NCBI RefSeq assembly: GCF_000311825.1
Contig: NZ_HE978568.1
Coordinates: 150,203-214,202, forward strand
Source: Peptoniphilus grossensis ph5
GTDB taxonomy: Bacteria; Bacillota; Clostridia; Tissierellales; Peptoniphilaceae
Length of the DNA: 64,000 nucleotides
Direction: 5' to 3'
The translations under genes and the position numbers were made by a program. The notes beneath the pieces are model-generated. The model ran no database searches, was not told where the DNA came from, and was given only the letters and a program-made list of their open reading frames with translations. Below are positions 8,635-25,851 of the stretch, in pieces (position 1 is the first letter of the stretch; the number at the start of each line of letters is the position of its first letter).

Positions 8635-10429
8635 CTTTAAGCTCCTTATCCTTGCTAACTACTAACCTTACTAACTGCGTATCTGTTTTGATTAACTCGT
8701 TTACACTTTCTGCGTTGTCTATAAATATTGGCACTTTTAAATCAAGCTTGTCTGACAAGCTATTAATTACATCAAGACCTGCGTTTATCTTTGCGGCATT
8801 GTTTAAGTCACTGTAAGGCACTCCTTTAAAAGTAGCTTCGCAAGTTTCTGTAATTCCGCCATTTATTTGATTTTCAAAAAGCTTAAATTTTACCAGGTCA
8901 AAACTGTCATTAATTTTGTCGCTTACTAGGTCTACATAAGCCTTTGTGTACTCTTCGCAAAGATAAATAATTCTTTGTTGTTCTTCGTATAATTTGGCAA
9001 GTTCTTTTTCTCGAGACTCCAACTCTTTAATTCTTTCATCAATCTTTTCGTTTTGTCCTTGTAGAGATAATTTTTTGTTTATTTCTTCCAAATCTGCGTT
9101 TAAGGAGTCTTTCTTTTCTAGTAAGTCCTTTTTATTGTCTAAAGAAAAATCACTTAATTTTGCCTTAGCCTCGTCAAGCTCCTTGTCAATTTCTTGTAGT
9201 CTAATAGGTTCAGTTGGCAGGTCTTCTTCCTTATATTCTTTTACCTCATAGATTGCTATAAGTTTTTCGCTCTCTTCAATTTTTATCTTTAAATCTTTCG
9301 CTTTTTCTTCTATGTTTGTTAACTTTTCAGATTTTTTCTTGTTGAAGTTAGCCATCGTTTTCTCTATTTGGTCTGGTAATAGGTCTTGACCGCAAGTTGG
9401 ACACTTAAAGTCTCCTTGATACTGTTCTTTGTGGACTTCTTGCCATTCTTCCCTAGCCTTTTCAACTAGATCTTTAAGCTTTTCTATATTCTTTTTCGCT
9501 TCTTCAAGTGCTAATTTATCGTGTTCTTTTTCAAGCAATACATTTTTATTTTTTAGATTTATTTCAAAGCATTTGTTTTGATACTTTTCTGCTAGGTCAG
9601 ACTTTTCTTTTTGTAACGCAGTAATTTTTTCTGTTATCTCAGTCATGCCCTCTGCCATTTTCGATGCATCTGCAAGCTTTTCGTCAATCTCTTTTATTGC
9701 TGGAAGTGTGCTTCTCTTTCTAAACTCTAAGGCATCAAAATCTATATCGTGGATCTTTGACTTGTCTAATTCGTCAATTCTTGCTGGTATAGACTCAATG
9801 TCCTTGTTTATTTTCCTGGCACTATCCTTGGCGATTTTCTTTAATTCATCAACTGTATAAGTTTCAAGGTCTAAGTCTTCTAAGTCCTTATTCTTTGCGA
9901 TAATATCCTCTGGCTTTACATCTTCTATAAGGCTTAAAAGTATTTCTCTTCTTTCTGTCTTTACCAAAAATTGGTTAAAGTACAGTGGATTTGAAAGCAA
10001 GTTGAAATTATCTTCAGACAACACACTTTCAATTCTTTCGTTGTACTCTTTTTTCTTAACTGGGACAGCGTTGATATAGTAGTCAGTAGTGTGTCCAGTA
10101 AATTCTGCCTGTGTAGATCCACGCTTCTTAGTCCAGACTTCTTTATAGATTTTTTTAAGCGTAAGATCTGTGTCGTCAAAGACAAAATCTCCTTCAACTA
10201 CTGATTCTAAGTTGTGGACTTCCTCTCCATTTTTGTCATAAGGCTTTATTGCAAAGTCTTTTCTGTTAAGGCTGTCCTTATCCCAAAGTAACCAGGAATA
10301 AGCATCGAAGATTGTTGTCTTGCCTACTGCGTTGTCCCCATAAATATTAGCTGTGTCCTTAAAGTCTATTGTTAAGTCTTTAATTCCCTTGAAGTTTTTA
10401 AGCTTTAAAGTTTTGATTTTTATTTGCAT
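8627..10429 (-). CDS. SMC/RecF-like ATPase with zinc hook
   Basis: The product is a 600-residue AAA15/SbcC-like ATPase. The Walker A GDNAVGKTT (31-39) follows LKNFKGIKDLTIDF; two long coiled coils (about 210-340 and 360-480) flank a zinc-hook CPTCGQ at 343-348. The C-terminal lobe has VPIFIDNAESVNE in place of Walker B, and VVSKDKELKV. Such phage proteins probably work with a nuclease in DNA end processing; the operon offers the MBL-fold and VRR-NUC proteins as partners. The segment ESIPARIDEL (about 212-221) is close to what CRISPR spacer 16979-17012 would encode. Confidence 0.87.
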   Translation of the reverse strand: MQIKIKTLKLKNFKGIKDLTIDFKDTANIYGDNAVGKTTIFDAYSWLLWDKDSLNRKDFAIKPYDKNGEEVHNLESVVEGDFVFDDTDLTLKKIYKEVWTKKRGSTQAEFTGHTTDYYINAVPVKKKEYNERIESVLSEDNFNLLSNPLYFNQFLVKTERREILLSLIEDVKPEDIIAKNKDLEDLDLETYTVDELKKIAKDSARKINKDIESIPARIDELDKSKIHDIDFDALEFRKRSTLPAIKEIDEKLADASKMAEGMTEITEKITALQKEKSDLAEKYQNKCFEINLKNKNVLLEKEHDKLALEEAKKNIEKLKDLVEKAREEWQEVHKEQYQGDFKCPTCGQDLLPDQIEKTMANFNKKKSEKLTNIEEKAKDLKIKIEESEKLIAIYEVKEYKEEDLPTEPIRLQEIDKELDEAKAKLSDFSLDNKKDLLEKKDSLNADLEEINKKLSLQGQNEKIDERIKELESREKELAKLYEEQQRIIYLCEEYTKAYVDLVSDKINDSFDLVKFKLFENQINGGITETCEATFKGVPYSDLNNAAKINAGLDVINSLSDKLDLKVPIFIDNAESVNELIKTDTQLVRLVVSKDKELKVD

Positions 10430-15313: not shown

Positions 15314-16813
15314 ATGAAAACTGCTTACGCTTACGCTAGGTTTTCTAGTGGAAATCAAAAAGAAGAGTCTATTGAGGAACAGTTTTATGAAATAAAAAGA
15401 TACGCAGAGTCCGAAGGAATAATGATTAAAAAATATTACTCCGACGAAGCTATAAGTGGTCTTACAAATGGTAGAGATCAATTCCGAGAAATGATAAATG
15501 AAATCTTAAATCATGGAGGAATAGATTATGTCATTGTATATAAAGTAGAAAGGTTTAGTAGAAACAAATATCAATCTGCAATCTATAAAGAAAAGTTATC
15601 CCGTAGAGGAGTAAAAGTTTTATATGCTGCCCAAAGACTTTCTGACACCCCAGAAGGTGGGCTTATGGAAGGTATTTTAGAGAGTTTTGCCCAATATTAC
15701 TCTGAAAATTTAAGCGTAGATACACGACGTGGACAATATTATAATGCCAGGAAGGGCTTATTTAATGGTGGAATCCCACCACTAGGTTACTCTATAGATG
15801 ACGAGAAAAAATATAAAATTGATCCATACGAAGCTACAATAGTAAAATCAATATTTGATATGTACTTAGATGGTATGTCTCAATCAGAAATAGCCAGAGA
15901 ACTTAATAAAAAAGGATATAAAACCAACAGAAAGAGAAACTTTGCCCAAACATCTATAAGTGGAATTCTAACCAATAAAAAATATATAGGGATCTATGAG
16001 CATGGAAGAATACAACTTAAATATAATGTTACTGGTAAAAGAACCCTTGAAGTTATGCGACCTGATGACCAAGTTGTAGTAAATTATGATGCAATTCCAC
16101 CTATTATAGACAAGGAAGTTTTTGAGAGGGTACAAAAAATGATAAAAGATAGAGCAAATCAAAAAGCAGTTAGACAACATCACGATTATCCACTAAAGGG
16201 GCTTATATACTGCGAGTGTGGTCAAAAGATGTATGGCTATACTGATACAAGATACCCTAGCAATAGCCGATATCGATGTAAAAAATGTAATAATGCTATA
16301 AAAAAAGAAGCCTTAGAAAAATATATTATGTCAGTAGCAAGAAATTACATTTTAGATAACGCTGATGTTTTAGTTGACAGAATTGAGCAAGAAACAAAAA
16401 AAGCATTAGAGTCGCTAGATACCGACAAAAATGCACTTAAAAAAAGGCTTGATGAAATTGATAAAGAAGAAAATAACTGCGTTGAATATGTAATGTCCTT
16501 TGGTGCCAATGACAAAATAAAATCTAAGATAGATGAATTGAATAAAGAAAGAAATGAAATTAACAATTTATTAGCATCTACTGGAGGTCCAATAAACATA
16601 AAAAAAGAAATTAGAATTTGGATCAATAAAATTAAAAATGATAACTTAGAATTAAACAAAAAAGAATTTATACAGTTATTGGTTAGAAAGGTTGTAGTTT
16701 CAAGGGAGGAAGTGCAAATTTTTTTTAACATATTTGCACGCCCCTCCAACACCAACGCCCCCACGAGGGGTGCGACATGGAATGGTATAAAGAGTGCTAC
16801 AACATCAACATGA
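15314..16813 (+). CDS. Large serine integrase, C-terminus reading into the CRISPR array
   Basis: The product is a 499-residue serine recombinase that would integrate and excise the prophage. The resolvase domain has YARFSS with catalytic Ser11 and DYVIVYKVERFSRN; the recombinase domain spans about 160-290; a zinc ribbon has Cys300, Cys302, Cys322 and Cys325; a coiled coil covers about 365-420. The last ~18 codons (APTRGATWNGIKSATTST) are encoded by CRISPR repeat and spacer DNA, and the TGA (16811-16813) shares its last A with the next repeat. In the free phage the gene must end differently. The domains are otherwise intact. Confidence 0.95.
   Translation: MKTAYAYARFSSGNQKEESIEEQFYEIKRYAESEGIMIKKYYSDEAISGLTNGRDQFREMINEILNHGGIDYVIVYKVERFSRNKYQSAIYKEKLSRRGVKVLYAAQRLSDTPEGGLMEGILESFAQYYSENLSVDTRRGQYYNARKGLFNGGIPPLGYSIDDEKKYKIDPYEATIVKSIFDMYLDGMSQSEIARELNKKGYKTNRKRNFAQTSISGILTNKKYIGIYEHGRIQLKYNVTGKRTLEVMRPDDQVVVNYDAIPPIIDKEVFERVQKMIKDRANQKAVRQHHDYPLKGLIYCECGQKMYGYTDTRYPSNSRYRCKKCNNAIKKEALEKYIMSVARNYILDNADVLVDRIEQETKKALESLDTDKNALKKRLDEIDKEENNCVEYVMSFGANDKIKSKIDELNKERNEINNLLASTGGPINIKKEIRIWINKIKNDNLELNKKEFIQLLVRKVVVSREEVQIFFNIFARPSNTNAPTRGATWNGIKSATTST
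16712..16776. other. Prophage attachment junction inside a CRISPR repeat
   Basis: The unit at 16745-16776 equals the CRISPR repeat over its last 17 bases (CCCACGAGGGGTGCGAC, 16760-16776) but differs at 8 of the first 10 bases and at position 15. Sequence to the left is integrase coding. This fits a hybrid att site with crossover near 16756-16766, around the loop of the repeat's own palindrome. GTGCAAAT (16712-16719) / ATTTGCAC (16732-16739) is a perfect inverted repeat just before it. A naturally degenerate last repeat is the alternative. Confidence 0.7.
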
Positions 16814-17448
16814 TTTCAATCCACGCACCCACGAGGGGTGCGACTTTACAATTATAATAAGCTTAGGGGTCTAATTAGAATTTCAATCCACGCACCCACG
16901 AGGGGTGCGACGATTGCTTTTTCTTCTCCGTCATACTCCATGGCATATTTCAATCCACGCACCCACGAGGGGTGCGACTTGAGGAACTTCCTGCAAGATT
17001 AGACGAGCTAAAATTTCAATCCACGCACCCACGAGGGGTGCGACGCTAAAAAATACGAGATAAATTCTGATGCTAGGGTGATTTCAATCCACGCACCCAC
17101 GAGGGGTGCGACATGACCTTACATCTTATGCAAAAAGTGAGGATATAATTTCAATCCACGCACCCACGAGGGGTGCGACTAGTCGATGTAGGCTTTTACA
17201 AAGATTTTTCCATTATTTCAATCCACGCACCCACGAGGGGTGCGACCTTTCAGTTCCAAAAAAGCTAGTTCAAGTCCTTTATATTTCAATCCACGCACCC
17301 ACGAGGGGTGCGACAGATTCCAAACCAACTGATGTTACTAATTATATAATTTCAATCCACGCACCCACGAGGGGTGCGACTTTTTCTGTATACTGTTGCA
17401 TCTTGTAAATTGTCGTATTTCAATCCACGCACCCACGAGGGGTGCGAC
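16745..17448 (-). CRISPR. Type I-C CRISPR array, 10 perfect repeats plus one half repeat
   Basis: Perfect 32-bp repeats start at 16813, 16880, 16947, 17013, 17081, 17148, 17215, 17283, 17349 and 17417; a half-degenerate unit is at 16745. Ten spacers are 34-36 bp and all differ. In the transcribed (minus) orientation the repeat is GT, a 7-bp stem CGCACCC/GGGTGCG with 5-nt loop, then the 11-nt handle TGGATTGAAAT, the type I-C form. The leader and newest spacers are at the right, next to cas2. Many spacers have an open frame throughout (for example one reading EELPARLDELK), as expected for phage coding DNA. Open frames with ISIHAPTRGAT are repeat artefacts. Confidence 0.99.
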
Positions 17449-17578: not shown

Positions 17579-17872
17579 TTATAAGATTAATAAGTCTTTT
17601 TCTGGGTTATAGGAGTCATCTCTTCCAAGAGTTTCCACTCTCCTCTCCCAATTTTTCCCTAAATTGTAAATTCTAATTGAGTCTTTTTTAGGGTCAATTA
17701 TTTTTTCTAATTTGTTTTTAATAAGAACTAAATCTGCAGGATAAATATTTAGTTCGAAAACAGAATTTTGAACTCTTTGTCCGTAATCTAAACAGACTTT
17801 TGCAACCTGCCTTAATCGTCTTTTGCCATCACTTGACACTGTTTCTACATCATAGGTTATTAGTACTTGCAT
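17579..17872 (-). CDS. cas2: Cas2, spacer-acquisition subunit
   Basis: The product has 97 residues and a ferredoxin fold beginning MQVLITYDVET, with RLRQVAKVCLDYGQRVQNSVFE as the first helix and strand. It dimerises and bridges two Cas1 dimers to insert new spacers at the leader. The stop is the last codon before the leader; it follows cas1 with one base between. The length and sequence are typical of type I-C. Confidence 0.97.
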   Translation of the reverse strand: MQVLITYDVETVSSDGKRRLRQVAKVCLDYGQRVQNSVFELNIYPADLVLIKNKLEKIIDPKKDSIRIYNLGKNWERRVETLGRDDSYNPEKDLLIL

Positions 17873-17873
17873 T

Positions 17874-18905
17874 TTAGCCTCCCATCATAAAAGGTGGATA
17901 GGATTCTATATCTCCTCTAAGATACGAATTTAATAACATGGCTTGAACATGGGGAAGTAGCCCTATTTTTATATTTTCTTCTATAAATGGATGATATATT
18001 TCTTCTTGTTCTCTTTTGTTCCAATTTTCTAAAACTATTTGTCTGCCATTATCGTTTAAAAGTGTGGCGCCATTTTCTTTTACCTCAAAATGATTCTTGT
18101 TTATTCTATTTAAGTTTATCATTGATAGCGTAAATTTATCAACTAGAAAGGCTCTCATTTCTTCTATTAAGTCAAGTGCCATGCTAACCCTTCCCGGCCT
18201 ATCTGTATGAAAGAACCCTGCATAGGAATCTATACCTACACCTCCAAGGGCTGCCGCAATATTATTTGTAAGTAGTGAATATAGAAAGGATATTAGGGCG
18301 TTGAACCTGTCCATTGGAGGTCTTTTGCTTCTATCTATAAAGAAAAAATCTTCACGCTGTTTTATTATTAATTCATCTAAGACCGAAAAGTACTCTCTAG
18401 CTATTATTCCTTCTATACCTCTTACACTGTCTTTGTTCTTGCAGTTTTTGATTTCCAGCATTAAAAGTTTTATGGAATTTATAACTTCTTCTAGTCTTTT
18501 GACATCAACTTTTTCTTTATTGTCTAACTTTCCTCTTATTAAGATTTTCCTGGAATTATATGCCTTTGCGTAGATTATATTTTTTACAAAATCCAAGGAC
18601 TCTTCTGACTCTTGCATTTTATATTGTTTCTTCCTTGTGTAAATATTTCCATAAGATGCTCCAAGAACTCTGCCGCAATACTTTCCATAGGGTGTAAAGA
18701 AGGTTATGGCTACATTTTCTTCCATACACATTTTCATTAAATCTGGACTCATGCCCATATAATTAAAACAAACTATCTGTTTTAATATGTGGATTGGGTA
18801 TCTTGCCACTGTTTTTGAATCAAGAGTTATAGAAATGTTTCTTCCTTCTTTTCTAAGATAATAATCTGGATTTGTGACATATAAAGTGTTCAATAGCTTT
18901 TTCAT
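17874..18905 (-). CDS. cas1: Cas1 integrase, type I-C
   Basis: The product is a 343-residue metal-dependent integrase that joins prespacers into the array. The N-terminal beta domain is followed by the all-alpha catalytic domain with the acidic metal site: EGIIAREYFSVL (Glu), then DSYAGFFHTDRPGRVSMALDLIEEMR with the conserved His and Asp. Full length. Its ATG overlaps the stop of cas4 by four bases. With intact Cas1, Cas2 and Cas4, the locus should still take up spacers. Confidence 0.97.
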   Translation of the reverse strand: MKKLLNTLYVTNPDYYLRKEGRNISITLDSKTVARYPIHILKQIVCFNYMGMSPDLMKMCMEENVAITFFTPYGKYCGRVLGASYGNIYTRKKQYKMQESEESLDFVKNIIYAKAYNSRKILIRGKLDNKEKVDVKRLEEVINSIKLLMLEIKNCKNKDSVRGIEGIIAREYFSVLDELIIKQREDFFFIDRSKRPPMDRFNALISFLYSLLTNNIAAALGGVGIDSYAGFFHTDRPGRVSMALDLIEEMRAFLVDKFTLSMINLNRINKNHFEVKENGATLLNDNGRQIVLENWNKREQEEIYHPFIEENIKIGLLPHVQAMLLNSYLRGDIESYPPFMMGG

Positions 18906-19555
18906 AATTCTGCCCCATAAATATAGTTATCAACATTTTTAATTTTTTTCGTTATCCTTGGGCTACACTCATTATAAAGAGAACACATCTTGCAATTCTT
19001 ATAATTTTCTGCTCTAGGGACTATTTTTTCTTTATAGTACTGGTGCATCTCTTTTGCTGCACTTATTGTTAGTTCTCTTAATTCATTTGCGAACTCAACT
19101 TTTTCACGAGTATCTGTTTCATTATAATAAATATATCCATAATCAAGTTTTGTATTGAAATTTTCTTCCACACAAATTGCCTGTGCCATTAACTGGGCAT
19201 TGTCATAATTATATTTTTTCTTTTTGCCCCTCTTATATTCTATAATAATTGGCTGCCATAAGCCCTTTCTATTATTCAACTCAATTCCCTTATCTGATTT
19301 ATGAAATTCGATTGCATCTAACCTGCCAGAGAGTCCCAGATTTTTGGAACTCACTGACATTGCTCTTGATATTATTAAGTCTTTTCTCTTTTCTTTTATA
19401 AAGGGTTTATCAACTTTTGTATGAATTACTTGACCTTCCGCTGTAAATGAATTTTCCGTCCAAATATTTTCAACATGAATTAGAGCCCACTGTCTCTTAC
19501 AAAACAAAAAGTGTTGAACTCCACTTAACATTAGGTATTCATCTTCAGCATACAT
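18902..19555 (-). CDS. cas4: Cas4 nuclease
   Basis: The product is a 217-residue RecB-type (PD-(D/E)XK) nuclease with a 4Fe-4S cluster. The first Cys is in FLFCKRQWALIHVE; the other three are in CKMCSLYNEC near the C-terminus. The nuclease core includes LDAIEFH and PIIIEYKRGKKK. In type I-C it trims prespacers and selects them next to the right PAM. It sits between cas7 and cas1 as usual. Confidence 0.96.
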   Translation of the reverse strand: MYAEDEYLMLSGVQHFLFCKRQWALIHVENIWTENSFTAEGQVIHTKVDKPFIKEKRKDLIISRAMSVSSKNLGLSGRLDAIEFHKSDKGIELNNRKGLWQPIIIEYKRGKKKKYNYDNAQLMAQAICVEENFNTKLDYGYIYYNETDTREKVEFANELRELTISAAKEMHQYYKEKIVPRAENYKNCKMCSLYNECSPRITKKIKNVDNYIYGAEL

Positions 19556-19556
19556 T

Positions 19557-20411
19557 TTAAATTCCCTTAATATGTTCTACTTTTAATCCCTTTTCTTCAT
19601 ATTCTTTTAGTTTTTCTTGGTCTAGTCTAATATTGTAATCTTCATATTTTACTTTTAAGTCTTCTGCGTTAGGAAGGTCGTACTCTAATAGGTCCTTTAT
19701 CTTTCCACTTGACACATCTCCAACCTTTGATGAGTGATTAAACCAGAATATGTCTTTGACTTCCATAGAGCCGTCTGGTCTAGCTGACGAAATATCATTA
19801 ATAAATAAAGTTTTTATACATTCTTTTATAGTTTCCACATCTTTTTCATCGAAGCCAGTTTTTTCTGCAAAGTATGAATTAATGCTTCCATTAACTACAT
19901 AAACTCCGTGGTCCACAAAGTGCTTTGTTCCCATTGTATCGGCACTTCTTGACTTTCCGGCAGTAGGTTCCATACCACTTATAGATTTAGTTATTTGCAT
20001 TGTAGTTGTTTCTATTGGCTCAAGAGATTTTGCTATAGAAATACTTACTGGTCCTCTAATTCCAAGAGATCTTTTTTGATAAGTAAAGACTTGACCAAAG
20101 GACCTTATATCAATCCATTTTTCATTGGCTCTTTTTTCTACTTCTTCGTCACTATCTTCTTTTTTGAAAACTGAATCAAATCTTTTTTCAAGAGATCTAA
20201 AGCCGTCGTCACTTCTGTCTAAGGATTTTACAAAGATGTCGTGACCCATGTCTTGCATCCTATTTCTTAGCTTTCTCTTTAAGCATACATCAGAAATTTC
20301 TCCAAATCCTCTATTATCTATTCTTGGCATATTGCCAGTTAGTGGGTCACCATTAGGATTTGCTCCAGAAACTTCAATTGTAAAAATAAAATCTACTTTA
20401 TTATTAATCAT
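19557..20411 (-). CDS. cas7: Cas7 (Csd2), Cascade backbone
   Basis: The product is a 284-residue RAMP protein that forms the helical backbone along the crRNA spacer. The family start KVDFIFTIEVSGANPNGDPL and the IDNRGFGEISDVCLKRKLRN segment are clear. Cas7 thumbs flip out every sixth base of the guide-target duplex, which matters for reading the crRNA-like RNA at 23207. Its ATG overlaps cas8c by eight bases. Confidence 0.96.
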   Translation of the reverse strand: MINNKVDFIFTIEVSGANPNGDPLTGNMPRIDNRGFGEISDVCLKRKLRNRMQDMGHDIFVKSLDRSDDGFRSLEKRFDSVFKKEDSDEEVEKRANEKWIDIRSFGQVFTYQKRSLGIRGPVSISIAKSLEPIETTTMQITKSISGMEPTAGKSRSADTMGTKHFVDHGVYVVNGSINSYFAEKTGFDEKDVETIKECIKTLFINDISSARPDGSMEVKDIFWFNHSSKVGDVSSGKIKDLLEYDLPNAEDLKVKYEDYNIRLDQEKLKEYEEKGLKVEHIKGI

Positions 20412-22338
20412 GTTTTTCCCCGCTTTCTCTTGTAGTTTTTTTGTATAAGTAATCTAATTCTTTAATTTGTGCTTGATACCCAAATAAAAATCCTGAGTTT
20501 AAAGGTTTATTTGTTTCTACCCCATTAAATTTGTAATTTTCCCCTATAAGTTCAATTACATCTCCAGCTTCTCTTTTTAAAATATTTCTTATTTCTCTAG
20601 TTTTTTCATTTGCATGCAACTTAAAATCATAGGGCTTGATTAAATCGCTAAGTCTCATGCTCATAGTTGCAGGTTTATTTAAATAACTTGACCAAAGTTT
20701 TTCAGCATTTGTTATTCTTTCGTCATCTTTATTGTAAGTAAAAGCTTCAGTTTTTTCATATATAGCTAGAAGTCTCCCAAATAAATAAGACCTATCTATT
20801 TCTTTTTTATCTAACATATTGCTTTTTATTCCCTCCTTTTCCCTCAGAACTGACAAGGCACATAACTTTACTTGTAGCCAAAACTTGTCGTAGTTTAATC
20901 GGTTTCTAATATTTATTTCTAAAGCTTGAATAATATTTTTAGGCATATCTCTGCCTTCAATAATCGAAGCTAAAATATTTTTGTATTGATCTGTTACGAA
21001 TTTCTTTTTTGCTACCTCAAGTCCCTTTTCTCTTTCTACTCCATAAGCTGTTTGTATAAGCATTAATGGGCTTGGCGTATAATTAGTCTTGCCCTTTTCT
21101 TTGGTAAATCTGTACCAATGATATTTGTTTTGCCAAGAAACTAAATTTTCCTTTAGCCTTGAACTATCCATCTCTCTAAAATATTTTACAGCTACTCTTC
21201 CATTGCTGACTTTGTCAATTATAGCCATATAATATTTAGATTCATTAGAAAATAGAACTTTACCGCTAGTGAAAGACTTGACTATACTTTCTGAAGTTTC
21301 ATCAGAAATTTTTCTGCCTTCATTTCTATTTCCTTGAGGCAAGTCTTCTCCTGCTATATCAAAAAGTGGTCCCAAATCAATAATTTCAATTTTCTTTGTT
21401 GGGTCTAAATCAGTTTTATTCTGAATATCATCGGAAAACCAACTTAGAGCATAGGTAAACTCTCCAAGCCACCTAGCTGTATTATCCCCATCAAGTAAAG
21501 ACTTTGCCATTTGAATTATTTTTTGGCTAGATTCCTTTCCAATTTTTATAGTTTCATCTGGCTTATCAAATCTGCCTAAAAAATTTTCATTATTTGCAGT
21601 AATTTGAGAAATAAGTCTTGCAGAACCTATTAAAGGTTTGTGTTTAAGACATAGAAAATCTTTTTCTCCACTGATGTTGCAAATAATTTCTTCCGTGTCT
21701 TTGTCTCTCGCAAAAATGTCCTTGGTGTACTTAATAAATTTTTCTTGCAAATCCTTATTTTCAGAAAGGCTTAAATCTTTTTTCCCATCATAATTTTCAA
21801 CTGCAAATGTTAAAAACACCTTTGAAAAATCTATTGTAACTTTCTTTGCCTTCTTGTCAGACTTATCCACAAATTCAACATTTTTATCTTTTAGAATTTT
21901 ATATTCTTTAAATAATTTAGAAAGTATATCTTCGAAAACCTTTTCTTTAATAATGTAGTCGTGGATTATTCTTACAAATTCATCTTCATCATAATTTAAC
22001 CATGCTTCCTGCTGACTAATGTAAGCTTCAGATTTGTTTGTGTTTTCTTGCATTACATAATCGAAGTTGTCAAAGAGAGGATGGGGTGCAATTCCACTAG
22101 ATCTTGCAACAGAATCTTCTGTTACAGGGAAAATTACAATATCGCCATCTTCTAAAAATTTTGCATCAACTAATTCACTTTTTTTGTTAATCGTAATCTC
22201 AACAATGTTTTTGCCATTGGACTTCATAGAATTGTGATAAATCGGAAGAATTAAACTGGATTTATCATCTAGGTTCCCAACTAAATTATTCTCAAGTCCA
22301 TAGTTATAAGAATTTAATAAGGCTGTTAAAAAACTCAA
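20404..22338 (-). CDS. cas8c: Cas8c (Csd1), Cascade large subunit
   Basis: The product is a 644-residue large subunit that reads the PAM and recruits Cas3. Family features seen: GIAPHPLFDNFDYVM near residue 80, CLKHKPLIGSARLISQI near 225, NDNTARWLGEF-type segments and the C-terminal helical bundle (possible internally translated Cas11-like small subunit, as known in type I-C). It starts with TTG at 22338, 6 bases after GGAAGTGA. No frameshift is seen. Confidence 0.93.
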   Translation of the reverse strand: MSFLTALLNSYNYGLENNLVGNLDDKSSLILPIYHNSMKSNGKNIVEITINKKSELVDAKFLEDGDIVIFPVTEDSVARSSGIAPHPLFDNFDYVMQENTNKSEAYISQQEAWLNYDEDEFVRIIHDYIIKEKVFEDILSKLFKEYKILKDKNVEFVDKSDKKAKKVTIDFSKVFLTFAVENYDGKKDLSLSENKDLQEKFIKYTKDIFARDKDTEEIICNISGEKDFLCLKHKPLIGSARLISQITANNENFLGRFDKPDETIKIGKESSQKIIQMAKSLLDGDNTARWLGEFTYALSWFSDDIQNKTDLDPTKKIEIIDLGPLFDIAGEDLPQGNRNEGRKISDETSESIVKSFTSGKVLFSNESKYYMAIIDKVSNGRVAVKYFREMDSSRLKENLVSWQNKYHWYRFTKEKGKTNYTPSPLMLIQTAYGVEREKGLEVAKKKFVTDQYKNILASIIEGRDMPKNIIQALEINIRNRLNYDKFWLQVKLCALSVLREKEGIKSNMLDKKEIDRSYLFGRLLAIYEKTEAFTYNKDDERITNAEKLWSSYLNKPATMSMRLSDLIKPYDFKLHANEKTREIRNILKREAGDVIELIGENYKFNGVETNKPLNSGFLFGYQAQIKELDYLYKKTTRESGEKHD

Positions 22339-22352
22339 TATATCACTTCCAT

Positions 22353-23057
22353 TTAATAATCTTCTAATTCTTGGTCCACTGTTCTCGTAACTTTAGCCTC
22401 TTTGAAAGAATAATTTGAAACCTCATTTATTATTGGGCACTCTTCAGGTTTTTTAAAAACTATTCTGCCTTTTTTCATATTAATTGGTCCATAAGCTGAC
22501 TTTAAAGTTTCTCCAGATTTTTCCGGATAAATAAAGCCAACAAACATTAGCCCAAGTCCTAAATCACTTTCATCATAGTAGCCCTTGTCACTTTCATATT
22601 CTTCTTCAGATAAATATTCAATGTAGCCTTGGCACTCAGATACACCTAAAAAGATTGGTCTTCTTCCACCTCTTTTTAGAGATCTCTCTGTAATTGCTTC
22701 GTGTTTGTTAAAATTTCTATCGCTTTTTAAATCTTCTCTATCTTCATTCCACTCAAAGTGAAACTTAACATAGTAGCAGGGACTAATTAAATAGGTATAT
22801 GCCGATAAATCGGACTTATAATCCTTTAATAAGAGTCTCATACCCTGTGTGTAGGATTCGATTTTATTCATGACTCTAACTTCGTCAATTACATTTGTAA
22901 TTGTGGGCTTAAAATAATTTGCATCGATTATACCCTTTAAGGCTTCTCTAGTAGGCGCGGAATAAGAGATCTTTTCTCCCCCGCTCTTACTTTCAGGCGC
23001 TGTAAACAATGCTTTAGATCCATAAATTTTTGCGTAAAAATATTTTGATTGATTCAA
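22353..23057 (-). CDS. cas5c: Cas5c (Cas5d), pre-crRNA endonuclease
   Basis: The product has about 234 residues. In type I-C this RAMP protein replaces Cas6: it cuts pre-crRNA at the base of the repeat stem, leaving an 11-nt 5' handle, and stays bound. Visible are YFYAKIYGSKALFTAPES at the start and the Arg/Lys-rich segment ERSLKRGGRRPIFLGVSECQ. TTG at 23057 is preferred since AGGAGG lies eight bases upstream; the GTG at 23066 overlaps that site. It heads the operon controlled by the promoter at 23130-23158. Confidence 0.93.
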   Translation of the reverse strand: MNQSKYFYAKIYGSKALFTAPESKSGGEKISYSAPTREALKGIIDANYFKPTITNVIDEVRVMNKIESYTQGMRLLLKDYKSDLSAYTYLISPCYYVKFHFEWNEDREDLKSDRNFNKHEAITERSLKRGGRRPIFLGVSECQGYIEYLSEEEYESDKGYYDESDLGLGLMFVGFIYPEKSGETLKSAYGPINMKKGRIVFKKPEECPIINEVSNYSFKEAKVTRTVDQELEDY

Positions 23058-23126
23058 TATTTTCACCTCCTCTTATTTAAATTTTATTTGAAAAATATTT
23101 TATGAAAACGAAATCATCTCTTTGTA

Positions 23127-23149
23127 TTTATGTTAATATTTAACTAAAA
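23127..23149 (+). promoter_or_regulatory. Predicted target of the crRNA-like RNA over the cas -10
   Basis: The sequence from 23130 (ATGTTAATATTTAAC...) matches the guide starting at 23233 at positions 1-5, 7-11, 13-15, 17-18 and 20; the early mismatches are at 6 and 12, positions that type I Cascade does not read. The 5' flank is TTT (23127-23129), close to the I-C PAM TTC. The site covers the whole -10 of the cas promoter. Confidence 0.75.
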
Positions 23150-23158
23150 ATTTGTCAA
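23130..23158 (-). promoter_or_regulatory. Promoter of the cas5-8-7-4-1-2 operon
   Basis: On the minus strand TTGACA (23158-23153), 17 bp, TAACAT (23135-23130). Transcription would start near 23123, about 65 bases upstream of the cas5c start. The -10 and most of the spacer lie inside the target of the crRNA-like RNA. Confidence 0.82.
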
Positions 23159-23191
23159 TGGTTAAATATTATTTTATTAGTTTTATTTTTC

Positions 23192-23200
23192 TGTTATAAT
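23192..23200 (+). promoter_or_regulatory. Extended -10 promoter of the crRNA-like RNA
   Basis: TGTTATAAT is a perfect extended -10 (TGnTATAAT). No strong -35 is present, as is common with extended -10 promoters. Transcription would start at about 23207, the first base of the pseudo-repeat. Confidence 0.75.
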
Positions 23201-23206
23201 TAATAT

Positions 23207-23283
23207 GTCAGCTGATGGCTGTGGATTGAAAAATGTTTATATTCAACAAAGACCCAATTATTACTAAAGGGTCTTTTTCTTTT
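23207..23283 (+). ncRNA. crRNA-like cas-regulating RNA (CreR/CreA type), predicted
   Basis: A ~77-nt RNA opposite to the cas genes. It starts GT, then stem CAGC/GCTG (23209-23212, 23218-23221) with 5-nt loop TGATG, then the 11-nt handle TGGATTGAAAA (23222-23232). The real repeat has the same plan: GT, 7-bp stem, 5-nt loop, 11-nt handle TGGATTGAAAT. Cas5c cutting after the stem would give a handle followed by guide ATGTTTATATTCAAC (from 23233). The RNA ends in a terminator: AAAGACCC (23248-23255) / GGGTCTTT (23269-23276) plus a T-run. The guide matches the cas promoter -10 region, so Cascade carrying it should repress cas transcription. Short pairing should not trigger Cas3. Seen: structure and match; known: such RNAs exist in other CRISPR loci; inferred: function here. 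Confidence 0.8.
23248..23283 (+). terminator. Terminator of the crRNA-like RNA
   Basis: Perfect 8-bp stem AAAGACCC/GGGTCTTT, 13-nt loop, then TTTTTCTTTTC on the plus strand, ending at the cas3 stop codon. On the minus strand the hairpin has only a weak T-run, so it may partly limit cas3-to-cas5 readthrough. Confidence 0.85.
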
Positions 23284-25851
23284 CTACATAAAAAATCCTC
23301 CAGGATCTTCAAAGTTTACTCCAAATTTTTCATCGTAATACTCTTGAGGTAAAATATAAACTTTTCCATCAAGTATCTTGTCGCAAGAACCTAAATCTTT
23401 TTCTCGCACCGATACAGTGTGTCTATTTAATTTTTTTAAAATAATTTTAATTTCTCTTAAGTCCTTTGGGTTATAATTTTTTAAAAATTCCTGCTCTAAT
23501 TGCCAAATCCTTTCAATTTCTTCCTTAGTTTCAGCATAATTTACAACAGCTGCTTTCTGGTTTTCTTCTATTAACTCGAAGTCTTTGTATGCTTCTTTAA
23601 ATGATTGGAATAAATCTATTGGCATTGCTAATTCTGTTGAAACTAAATATCCTTTAAGCATTACAAATTCTTTAGTTTTTTTCAAAGCATCACATTTATC
23701 TTTGTTTTCAGCCAACAATTCTAAAACTGGAGAAAATTTATCCTTTTCCAAATTTGCATATAATTTTTCAAAATACTCTTTAGTTAAATCTTTAATATCA
23801 AAATCATCTTCATAACTTTCAAAGGCAGATTGACAGGCACTCTTTCTTTTATCAACTCCCTTTAAGAGAGAAGTTTTTTCTTCAGTATTGTCTAGTTTAA
23901 TGAGATAGGTATAAGCCTCTTCTTTTTTCCCTTCTCTATTACATCTGCCCATGGCTTGAATTATGGAATCCATTCCTGATAGAGACCTTATAACCATATC
24001 AAAATCCACATCGACTCCTGCTTCAATAAGCTGAGTTGAAATAAGACAAATTTTATCTCCATCTTTTAATCTTTTTTTAATCTCATGAATTTTTTTAAGC
24101 CTGTCGTTTGCAGTTAAGTTCGTTGTTAAGTAATATAGATCTCCTTCCTCATAATCTTCTTGTAACAAATCGTATAATTTTTTTACAACAGACTTTGTGT
24201 TTAAAATTATTAAATTTGATTTGTCAGAATTTTCTAATACAAGGTCTTTAACATCCTCTATTCCATACATTTTTCTTATGTCGCCATAAATTTTTAATTT
24301 TGCCCTTTCAAAGGCTGAAAAATCATAATTTTTATGCTCAATGATGTCTTTATTTTTGCCCGATAAATCTCCATAAAAAAGTTTATGGCAAAGAGCATCA
24401 TAATCATTAGTAGGTTGAGTTGCTGTTGAAAGAACAAAATTTGCTCTCATTACAATTTTCATAAAATTTAAAACCAAATTTGTCAAATACAAAAATTCTG
24501 TTGGAATAGATTGCCACTCGTCCAAAATTATTACAGAATTGATAAAAGATTTAAACCTTGTGAGATTTGCTGATTTCCCCTTAAATAGGGAATTGTAAAA
24601 CTGCACCATTGTAGTTAGAACCACTGGTGATGTCCAGTCGTCTAATAAAAATCTTTTTCTTGTTATTTCAATTGAATCCTCTTTGTCATCAATTGAAGCT
24701 TCTTCTTCATCATCTACTACATTTGAATGATGCTCCAATACATATTTGTCATTATTTAAAACTTTTTTCATCTCAGATGCATTTTGTTCCAAAACAGAAA
24801 GAAAGGAAGTTACATAAAAAAATCTTTCCTTATTTTGATAATTCATTTGATTTATTCCATATCTTAAAGATAAAAGAGTCTTTCCTGCACCCGTTGGCAA
24901 ATCCAACTTATATATTCCATTTCTATCTTCTTTAGATCTCTTTAATATGTCCTCTGAAATTTTATTCCTCAAAATGTTTAATTCTCCAAGGGCTTCTCCA
25001 AAGGAACTGTATTTTTCATCCACATTTTTTTCAAAATTTTTTATAACTTTTTTTAAATTATTTTCATCTTCATCAATAATTATTTCACCAAAAGCATTTA
25101 TTGTATCTTTAATATCTGCTGACTTTAGTATAGAAACTAAAAGTCTTATAAGCATTGCCTTGTAAAAATAAACTGCTTCTTCTCTTTTTTCTTGGCTGTA
25201 ATCGGAAGCTGTCCTTTTCAATTTTTCTAAAACTTTTGCATACTCTAAAAAGCCCTTGCAAAATATTCTATTTATATTAATTTTTTTAGCTTCAAAAAAC
25301 TTTTGAGTCTCAATATAAAATTCATCAATGTCAAAACTTTCACTGTCACTAGTTCCAAACTTATATTCCAATTTTTTGATTTTTTTCATTCTTTCAAGGC
25401 TAGTAAAAACATAAGCCATGTCTTCATTTTTTCGAACCATGTCATATTGACCGTGGTGAGACATTATTGTGTAAACCAAAATATTTGTATAATCACTAAG
25501 TTCAGAAATAAGGCTTTTATCAGCCATTAAAATCTCTTTTAATTCTAATATGTAATCACTAGAGACATTTTTAAATTCACTTTGAATATCTTTATAAATT
25601 TTTAAAACAAATAGTCCACCAAGGCTTGAATGGTCTACCCTTTTGTTTGAATTTTTTCTAATCTTTTCTTGAAAGTCTATACTTGCTTTACCAATATCGT
25701 GAAGTAGACCAAGTAAAAAAGAAATATTTTCCATTTCAACTTTTTCACCAATTTTTTTGCTCTCGCAAGCTGTGTTAAAAAGATGAGAGTATAAAGTCTG
25801 CGCCTTTCTTAAATTTCCCTGATCTATATGGGCATATAATTTATCTAACAT
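23284..25851 (-). CDS. cas3: Cas3 helicase-nuclease
   Basis: The product has 855 residues: HD nuclease followed by SF2 helicase. The HD motif LLHDIGKASIDF is at about 50-60, with SHHGQYD near 131; Walker A LPTGAGKT at 318-325; DEWQS at 444-448; motif III STATQP; motif VI QAMGRCNREG. It is recruited by target-bound Cascade and shreds DNA. It is the most upstream cas gene, but is separated from cas5c by 217 bp containing a second promoter and the crRNA-like RNA, so Cas3 and Cascade levels can be set separately. Confidence 0.97.
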   Translation of the reverse strand: MLDKLYAHIDQGNLRKAQTLYSHLFNTACESKKIGEKVEMENISFLLGLLHDIGKASIDFQEKIRKNSNKRVDHSSLGGLFVLKIYKDIQSEFKNVSSDYILELKEILMADKSLISELSDYTNILVYTIMSHHGQYDMVRKNEDMAYVFTSLERMKKIKKLEYKFGTSDSESFDIDEFYIETQKFFEAKKININRIFCKGFLEYAKVLEKLKRTASDYSQEKREEAVYFYKAMLIRLLVSILKSADIKDTINAFGEIIIDEDENNLKKVIKNFEKNVDEKYSSFGEALGELNILRNKISEDILKRSKEDRNGIYKLDLPTGAGKTLLSLRYGINQMNYQNKERFFYVTSFLSVLEQNASEMKKVLNNDKYVLEHHSNVVDDEEEASIDDKEDSIEITRKRFLLDDWTSPVVLTTMVQFYNSLFKGKSANLTRFKSFINSVIILDEWQSIPTEFLYLTNLVLNFMKIVMRANFVLSTATQPTNDYDALCHKLFYGDLSGKNKDIIEHKNYDFSAFERAKLKIYGDIRKMYGIEDVKDLVLENSDKSNLIILNTKSVVKKLYDLLQEDYEEGDLYYLTTNLTANDRLKKIHEIKKRLKDGDKICLISTQLIEAGVDVDFDMVIRSLSGMDSIIQAMGRCNREGKKEEAYTYLIKLDNTEEKTSLLKGVDKRKSACQSAFESYEDDFDIKDLTKEYFEKLYANLEKDKFSPVLELLAENKDKCDALKKTKEFVMLKGYLVSTELAMPIDLFQSFKEAYKDFELIEENQKAAVVNYAETKEEIERIWQLEQEFLKNYNPKDLREIKIILKKLNRHTVSVREKDLGSCDKILDGKVYILPQEYYDEKFGVNFEDPGGFFM

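Follow-up and report, generated by a model that had tools for sequence, protein, structure and literature searches.

The gap between cas3 and cas5c in a type I-C CRISPR-Cas locus of Peptoniphilus grossensis ph5 contains a stand-alone, shortened I-C repeat followed by a guide that matches the promoter of the cas5 operon. We predict with high confidence that this unit gives rise to a crRNA-like RNA, a type I-C CreR, with which Cascade would repress its own operon. The DNA itself shows the unit, its match, its conservation, the PAM and the way in which guide and target change jointly, as well as a match that is lost at each sixth base and past position 17. An original prediction, made from the window (the whole stretch of 64,000 nucleotides analysed here), had proposed that Cascade represses its own operon. 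Comparison with related genomes supports this idea, since the unit is conserved, its target co-varies with it and the flank of the target is mostly TTC.

All of the cas genes lie on the minus strand in the order cas3, cas5c, cas8c, cas7, cas4, cas1c and cas2 (TIGR profile matches), together with an array. The features of the locus, in window coordinates, are:

16745..17448, minus strand: CRISPR array of 11 repeats, GTCGCACCCCTCGTGGGTGCGTGGATTGAAAT on the cas strand
17579..17872, minus strand: cas2 (TIGR01573)
17874..18905, minus strand: cas1c (TIGR03640)
18902..19555, minus strand: cas4 (TIGR00372)
19557..20411, minus strand: cas7 (TIGR02589)
20404..22338, minus strand: cas8c (TIGR01863)
22353..23066, minus strand: cas5c (TIGR01876, 226.6 bits)
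23127..23129, plus strand: PAM position, TTT in the window
23130..23149, plus strand: target of the guide, with the conserved matched part at 23130-23146
23130..23158, minus strand: cas5 operon promoter, -35 TTGACA (23158-23153), 17-nt spacer and -10 TAACAT (23135-23130), 10/12 match to consensus
23192..23200, plus strand: extended -10 TGTTATAAT of the predicted guide-RNA promoter, predicted start near 23207
23207..23232, plus strand: stand-alone shortened I-C repeat, with GT at 23207, stem 23209-23212/23218-23221 (CAGC/GCTG), loop and 11-nt handle
23222-23232, plus strand: handle TGGATTGAAAA, 11 nt, part of the stand-alone repeat
23233..23249, plus strand: guide, 17 nt with conserved matching
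23248..23278, plus strand: intrinsic terminator, 8-bp stem 23248-23255/23269-23276, 13-nt loop and T run
23284..25851, minus strand: cas3 (TIGR01587, TIGR01596), ending just past the terminator and convergent with the guide RNA

The true start of cas5c is probably the TTG at 23057 and not the GTG at 23066, because the TTG aligns with the ATG of relatives and the GTG lies inside the ribosome-binding site. The stretch from the cas -10 to the ribosome-binding site includes GATGATTTCGTTTTC (cas strand, 23118-23104), perhaps an operator or leader element. With small changes this sequence is common to five Peptoniphilus loci (the window and L083-L086), and it was not seen in L087 or other family units. 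It contains a 5-codon frame (23117-23100) that is closed by a stop in only some of these five loci.

The predicted layout of the unit, with an extended -10, a GT start, a 4-bp stem, a 5-nt loop, the handle and a terminator, was confirmed by direct reading of the strand opposite to cas. In ViennaRNA the stem has 4-5 bp and the loop 5 or 3 nt, depending on a fifth U-G pair that the program adds, and the hairpin does not fold clearly better than shuffled sequences (z -1.4 to -1.9). The handle equals that of the array repeat in 10 of 11 nt, with only the last base differing, and the stand-alone repeat, TGTGGATTGAAA, is present as a single copy in the 2.1 Mb genome. A repeat-derived, crRNA-like unit is found outside the array at the cas locus, as it is with CreR. 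Our scan for promoters and terminators did not report the guide-RNA promoter because it has no -35, nor the unit's terminator because the 13-nt loop exceeds the limit of the scan. Of the 16 family units, 11 have the motif TGnTAnnnT at a distance of 28-33 nt upstream of the handle. A search of Rfam gave nothing above the gathering score and two chance matches. In ViennaRNA the free guide RNA is predicted to pair part of its handle with the guide, which could hinder loading.

Alignment of the guide, ATGTTTATATTCAACAAAGA, with ATGTTAATATTTAACTAAAA at 23130-23149 gave matches at 14 of the first 17 bases, with mismatches at positions 6, 12 and 16, and another at 19, exactly those listed in the original prediction. 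The target overlaps the -10 of the TTGACA-17-TAACAT promoter ahead of cas5, which had also been predicted. An equally good match (10/10 seed, at least 14/15) was obtained in 4 of 20,000 dinucleotide shuffles of the gap and in 0 of 20,000 shuffles of the guide. Within the 64-kb window the full guide seed matches only itself and the target, and the degenerate target site with its PAM has one exact match in the whole 2.1 Mb genome. Six further places in the genome fit the degenerate pattern with 2 mismatches each; as a control, the reversed pattern gave 13 at 2 or fewer. These data suggest that the window genome by itself already counts against chance, if not overwhelmingly because the gap is so AT-rich.

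Related loci were collected by Cas5c searches of 130 family genomes (28 with a match), 249 order genomes (32, including the 28 of the family), 391 class genomes (61 with a match), 398 phylum genomes (110 with a match) and a named collection (16 loci), with one genome sampled per species. Regions of up to ~17 kb around cas5 were read in 20 family loci, 40 class loci (drawn from the 57 non-family class genomes that gave a Cas5 match) and 80 phylum loci (79 genomes). Including the window and five named loci, 146 loci were scanned in total. Outside the family, absence was judged by a handle-based scan that misses strongly altered handles, and contig ends shorten some regions.

The Cas5c of the window is 81-87% identical in five named Peptoniphilus species and 67% in a sixth. 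Whether handle and guide-target match recur and co-vary in relatives had been posed as a test of the original prediction, and they do recur: of the 28 family genomes in which Cas5 was matched, 16 carry the unit, as do 12 more distantly related loci and one more that is doubtful (L160), and other Bacillota families are included. The named collection has it in 10 of 16 loci, among them Peptoniphilus harei, P. genitalis, P. vaginalis, P. lacydonensis, Urinicoccus massiliensis, Anaerococcus porci and A. senegalensis. It occurs in 8 of 40 class loci, 3 of 80 phylum loci (L160 being a doubtful fourth) and 1 of 5 further named loci (Veillonella intestinalis). Handle and guide together locate a site in the 5' region of cas5 in 15 family loci, with 9-10 of 10 seed bases; the 16th unit (L023/L100) was outside the range of the first scan and was read by eye and then recovered by a wider scan. 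The search for terminators in relatives was permissive (4 T in 7) and despite this found none in L103.

The remaining 12 of these 28 family genomes have no detected unit, with 11 of them read (5 over ~16 kb and 6 over no more than 330 nt upstream). It was not found in four of four other order loci (~3.6 kb read each), nor, by the handle-based scan, in 32 of 40 class loci and 76-77 of 80 phylum loci. Because many I-C loci have no detectable unit, it is dispensable. In a close relative, P. phoceensis (L083, the same as L034), the cas3-cas5 gap is without a unit and a terminator-like hairpin remains; cas5 is intact there, the array has 18 repeats, and the unit was probably lost naturally. In L100 (~9319-10134; also L023 and L032), unit and target are 33 nt apart, too close for the usual guide-RNA promoter to fit, and Cas5 is matched in two pieces, so that this looks like a decaying locus.

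As controls for these identifications we compared real and mock guides. A test of 481 stem-bearing, handle-like sites gave 34 with a match close by, 24 of them flanked by TTC, while 15,551 mock guides gave 162 matches of which only 2 had a TTC flank. The PAM was not used in finding units. The mock rate predicts ~5 false matches among the 481, nearly always without TTC, and non-TTC matches outside the family therefore need other evidence. Dropped from the 34 matches were window position 18608 (PAM GTC, poor handle), L100 8904 (PAM GGT), L152 (a masked run of N) and L168 (PAM TAG). The flanks of the remaining 30 units are TTC in 24, TTT in 3 (the window, L086 and L160), CTC in 2 and TAC in 1. 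L160 was kept yet is doubtful, with TTT, a site 468 nt away and no support from an array handle. A TTT flank had been named as a weak point of the original prediction; this holds for the window, but TTT is not the rule.

Stems vary in sequence and still pair, with at least 4 Watson-Crick pairs in 22 of 30 units compared with 5.5% of random positions; a stem, with G-U allowed, was a criterion in the 146-locus scan and not in the first family scan. Two loci, L138 and L139, have arrays with the handle TGAGTTGAAAC and units with TGAGTTGAAAT. Both units and arrays there bear the unusual handle TGAGTTGAAA, which supports these non-TTC matches. By contrast, L095-L097 and L100 have a unit handle CGGATTGAAA beside arrays with TGGATTGAAA, so the handle does not always follow the array. 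Co-variation of handle and array, with L138 and L139 for it and L095-L097 and L100 against it, says little because nearly all arrays seen share TGGATTGAAA.

Guide and target co-vary much more clearly. Across 21 distinct guides (24 units), own targets fit at 14.1 of 15 positions and foreign targets at 6.4, with 3 of 420 foreign pairs reaching 13, for example between close relatives. None of 100,000 permutations reached the observed sum, own scores being raised by the choice of site. Because the sites were first picked by the score being tested, this choice was repeated with plain 20-nt identity, without position weighting or PAM, and the same site was best in 28 of 30 units. For L086 and L092, plain identity preferred another site and the target rests on position and orthology. 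Among 12 distinct family guides, positions 1-5 and 7-11 each have two to four different bases, and both sides change together in all but one of 120 cells. As in CreR systems, guide and target stay matched in related loci, through partial, seed-centred complementarity to a cas promoter with a PAM.

The matches per position in 28 units have a regular pattern. Positions 1-5 match in all 28, 7-11 in 26-28 and 13-16 in 26-28, compared with 9 at position 6 and 7 at position 12. Position 17 matches in 18, 18 in 8 and 19 in 3, with values beyond scattered around chance (36%, from composition). Class 1 complexes flip out every sixth guide base and leave five-base blocks (review, as excerpted in PMC11127173). 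On the evidence of these aligned pairs, the profile is the footprint of sixth-base flipping by Cascade, as had been suggested from the mismatches at 6 and 12 in the window, and evolution is seen to have kept just the bases readable by Cascade, in three blocks only. Matching at positions 6 (9/28) and 12 (7/28) was also tested for selected mismatch against the 36% expected by chance; because it is near the chance rate, these positions look simply unread.

With the best promoter guess, the -10 is inside the site or at its edge in 12 of 16 family units. The best guess for L095, L096 and L099 puts the -10 13-16 nt beyond the site, L100 gives a weak guess only, and the target in L048 is in the first codons of cas3; blocking in L095, L096, L099 and L048 would therefore act just after transcription start. 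Loci with abutting cas3 and cas5 (L110, L111, L138, L139, L154 and L048) have the unit at the start of cas3. The two genes are 11-13 nt apart in L138 and L048 (from ORFs), 29 nt apart in L110 and L111 (from tblastn) and close or overlapping in L154, and L139 was placed by its likeness to L138. L134 carries two units (6006 and 8393), one matching the start of cas5 and one just upstream of the cas3 promoter. Less clear cases are L103 and L150, with ~300 and ~600 nt between target and cas5. Downstream of the guide's target, the 786-nt cas3-cas5 gap of L150 (5190-5977) has small overlapping ORFs resembling a broken gene.

In 17 of 30 units (L088, L089, L092-L102, the cas5 unit of L134, L138, L139 and L208), the PAM is at most 18 nt from the ribosome-binding site of cas5 or cas3. 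A TTC PAM reads GAA on the strand leading into the cas gene, as in GAAAGGAG of L101 and L134, and the CTC PAM of L138 is the GAG of GAGGTGA. This leaves no room for a toxin in these 17 units and the cas gene is therefore the target there. The spacing bears on whether the unit is an addiction module like CreTA, in which the guide would be an antitoxin silencing a toxin hidden between promoter and cas5. A putative CreA and toxin are described for the cas3-casA gap of the Citrobacter rodentium I-E locus (in the excerpted text of PMC12055562), and the window has a leader of ~57 nt with the 5-codon frame between the site and the cas5 ribosome-binding site, in an element common to the five Peptoniphilus loci. 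However, L085 and L086 do not keep the small frame closed, and in the 17 units the targeted promoter has no toxin to drive. A tiny toxin in the ~57-nt leader is unlikely, and we consider an addiction module improbable.

It is still less probable that the unit sequesters Cascade, as a decoy or a dead remnant, in the manner of phage Racr RNAs, with the promoter match incidental. Solitary repeats can inhibit Cascade, and RacrIC1 blocks type I-C (extract of PMC10651486), but the unit is inside a host cas locus and not in a phage, a guide-specific pattern gave 0 viral contigs, and carriage by a phage or mobile element was not what we found. Nor would a decoy need a guide that tracks the promoter base by base. 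An effect by self-targeting, with cutting or primed adaptation instead of repression, would draw on the PAM and full seed that are present. We give it the same slight weight, since matching is at chance from position 18 on (28 units), the site persists in the chromosome, and cutting and priming in the Haloarcula I-B system vanish with spacers of 24 nt or less, with repression remaining (PMC10989794, as excerpted). A chance similarity beside a stray repeat relic has hardly any probability left: the target region has 15% G+C and its shuffles reach a 10/10 seed in 120 of 20,000, but this reading is already contradicted by the comparative data, namely joint conservation and co-variation across many genomes and TTC in 24 of 34 matches compared with 2 among 15,551 mock guides.

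Under autorepression through a CreR-like RNA, the transcript would start near 23207 and end at the terminator. Cas5c cuts I-C precursors, and here it would cut ahead of the handle, near 23222, with the product being loaded into Cascade. Cascade would then pair with 14-15 bases of the cas5 start region and block RNA polymerase. Because pairing stops at 17, Cas3 would not be recruited and the chromosome would be left uncut. Competition from array crRNAs, or removal of Cascade by an anti-CRISPR, would lessen repression and lead to more Cas protein; this feedback step is modelled on the CreR of other subtypes (as outlined in PMC12737573 and PMC13131331). The Neisseria lactamica I-C Cascade uses the PAMs TTC and TTT and, when aimed with TTC at a -10, represses the gene (PMC10865793, in part). 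In Haloarcula I-B, spacers of 16-20 nt repressed a test gene weakly and the natural CreA acts via an 11-bp seed (PMC10989794, same excerpt); blocking may take less at a promoter than against a polymerase that is already elongating.

If the proposal is true, RNA-guided CRISPR self-control extends to type I-C. The ~24 natural guide-target pairs would then show what a repressing Cascade reads: three blocks of about five bases, with none at every sixth position or past 17. Native I-C loci used as CRISPRi or Cas3 tools may have a built-in off-switch, and such very small loci (an RNA gene of ~80 nt) are suited to testing whether anti-CRISPRs raise Cas expression. More tentatively, and with somewhat more doubt than belief, we suggest that type I-C in many Bacillota has an RNA thermostat. 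A one-repeat, terminator-ended, Cas5c-cut guide of ~17 bases would form a dedicated short Cascade that is purely a repressor of its own operon. It would move with the operon start, even as two units in one locus, its PAM often beside or inside the Shine-Dalgarno region, and anti-CRISPR attack would trigger new Cas synthesis.

Several known systems resemble this unit. Liu et al. in 2023 reportedly described CreR, a cas-regulating RNA, in types I-B, I-E and V-A. The present unit shares with it a crRNA-like RNA at a cas locus, partial complementarity to a cas promoter and, as we propose, autorepression. It differs in its type I-C setting with Cas5c understood to be the processing enzyme, in one shortened repeat with a terminator, in matching within 17 nt, in a position that moves with the operon start and in one locus with two units, although published CreRs may share some of these traits. 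Shmakov et al. in 2023 are said to have surveyed CRISPR-derived regulatory elements, or mini-arrays, over many subtypes. These too are conserved stand-alone repeats with a spacer partly matching cas promoters, whereas theirs reportedly often have two repeats and are aimed at cas8. Long-form tracrRNA of Cas9, reportedly described by Workman in 2021, also gives RNA-guided self-repression of cas genes, but it is a type II, natural single-guide RNA and is unrelated. CreA of CreTA has one or two ectopic repeats, a seed-limited match and Cascade as the repressor (PMC9458426 and PMC10989794, in extracts); here, by contrast, the cas gene itself is targeted. Reports of CreR cover I-B, I-E and V-A (PMC13131331, as excerpted), and a review calls it widespread in type I and V-A (excerpt of PMC12737573). 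The original prediction held that a type I-C version seems not to be widely described, and no I-C CreR was among the matches listed in our literature searches (titles and abstract openings), which fits this view as far as it goes; an I-C entry in the work of Liu or of Shmakov in 2023 is possible. Compared with known CreRs, what may be new here is a type I-C form with a single shortened repeat, ended by a terminator, whose guide is read over 17 nt.
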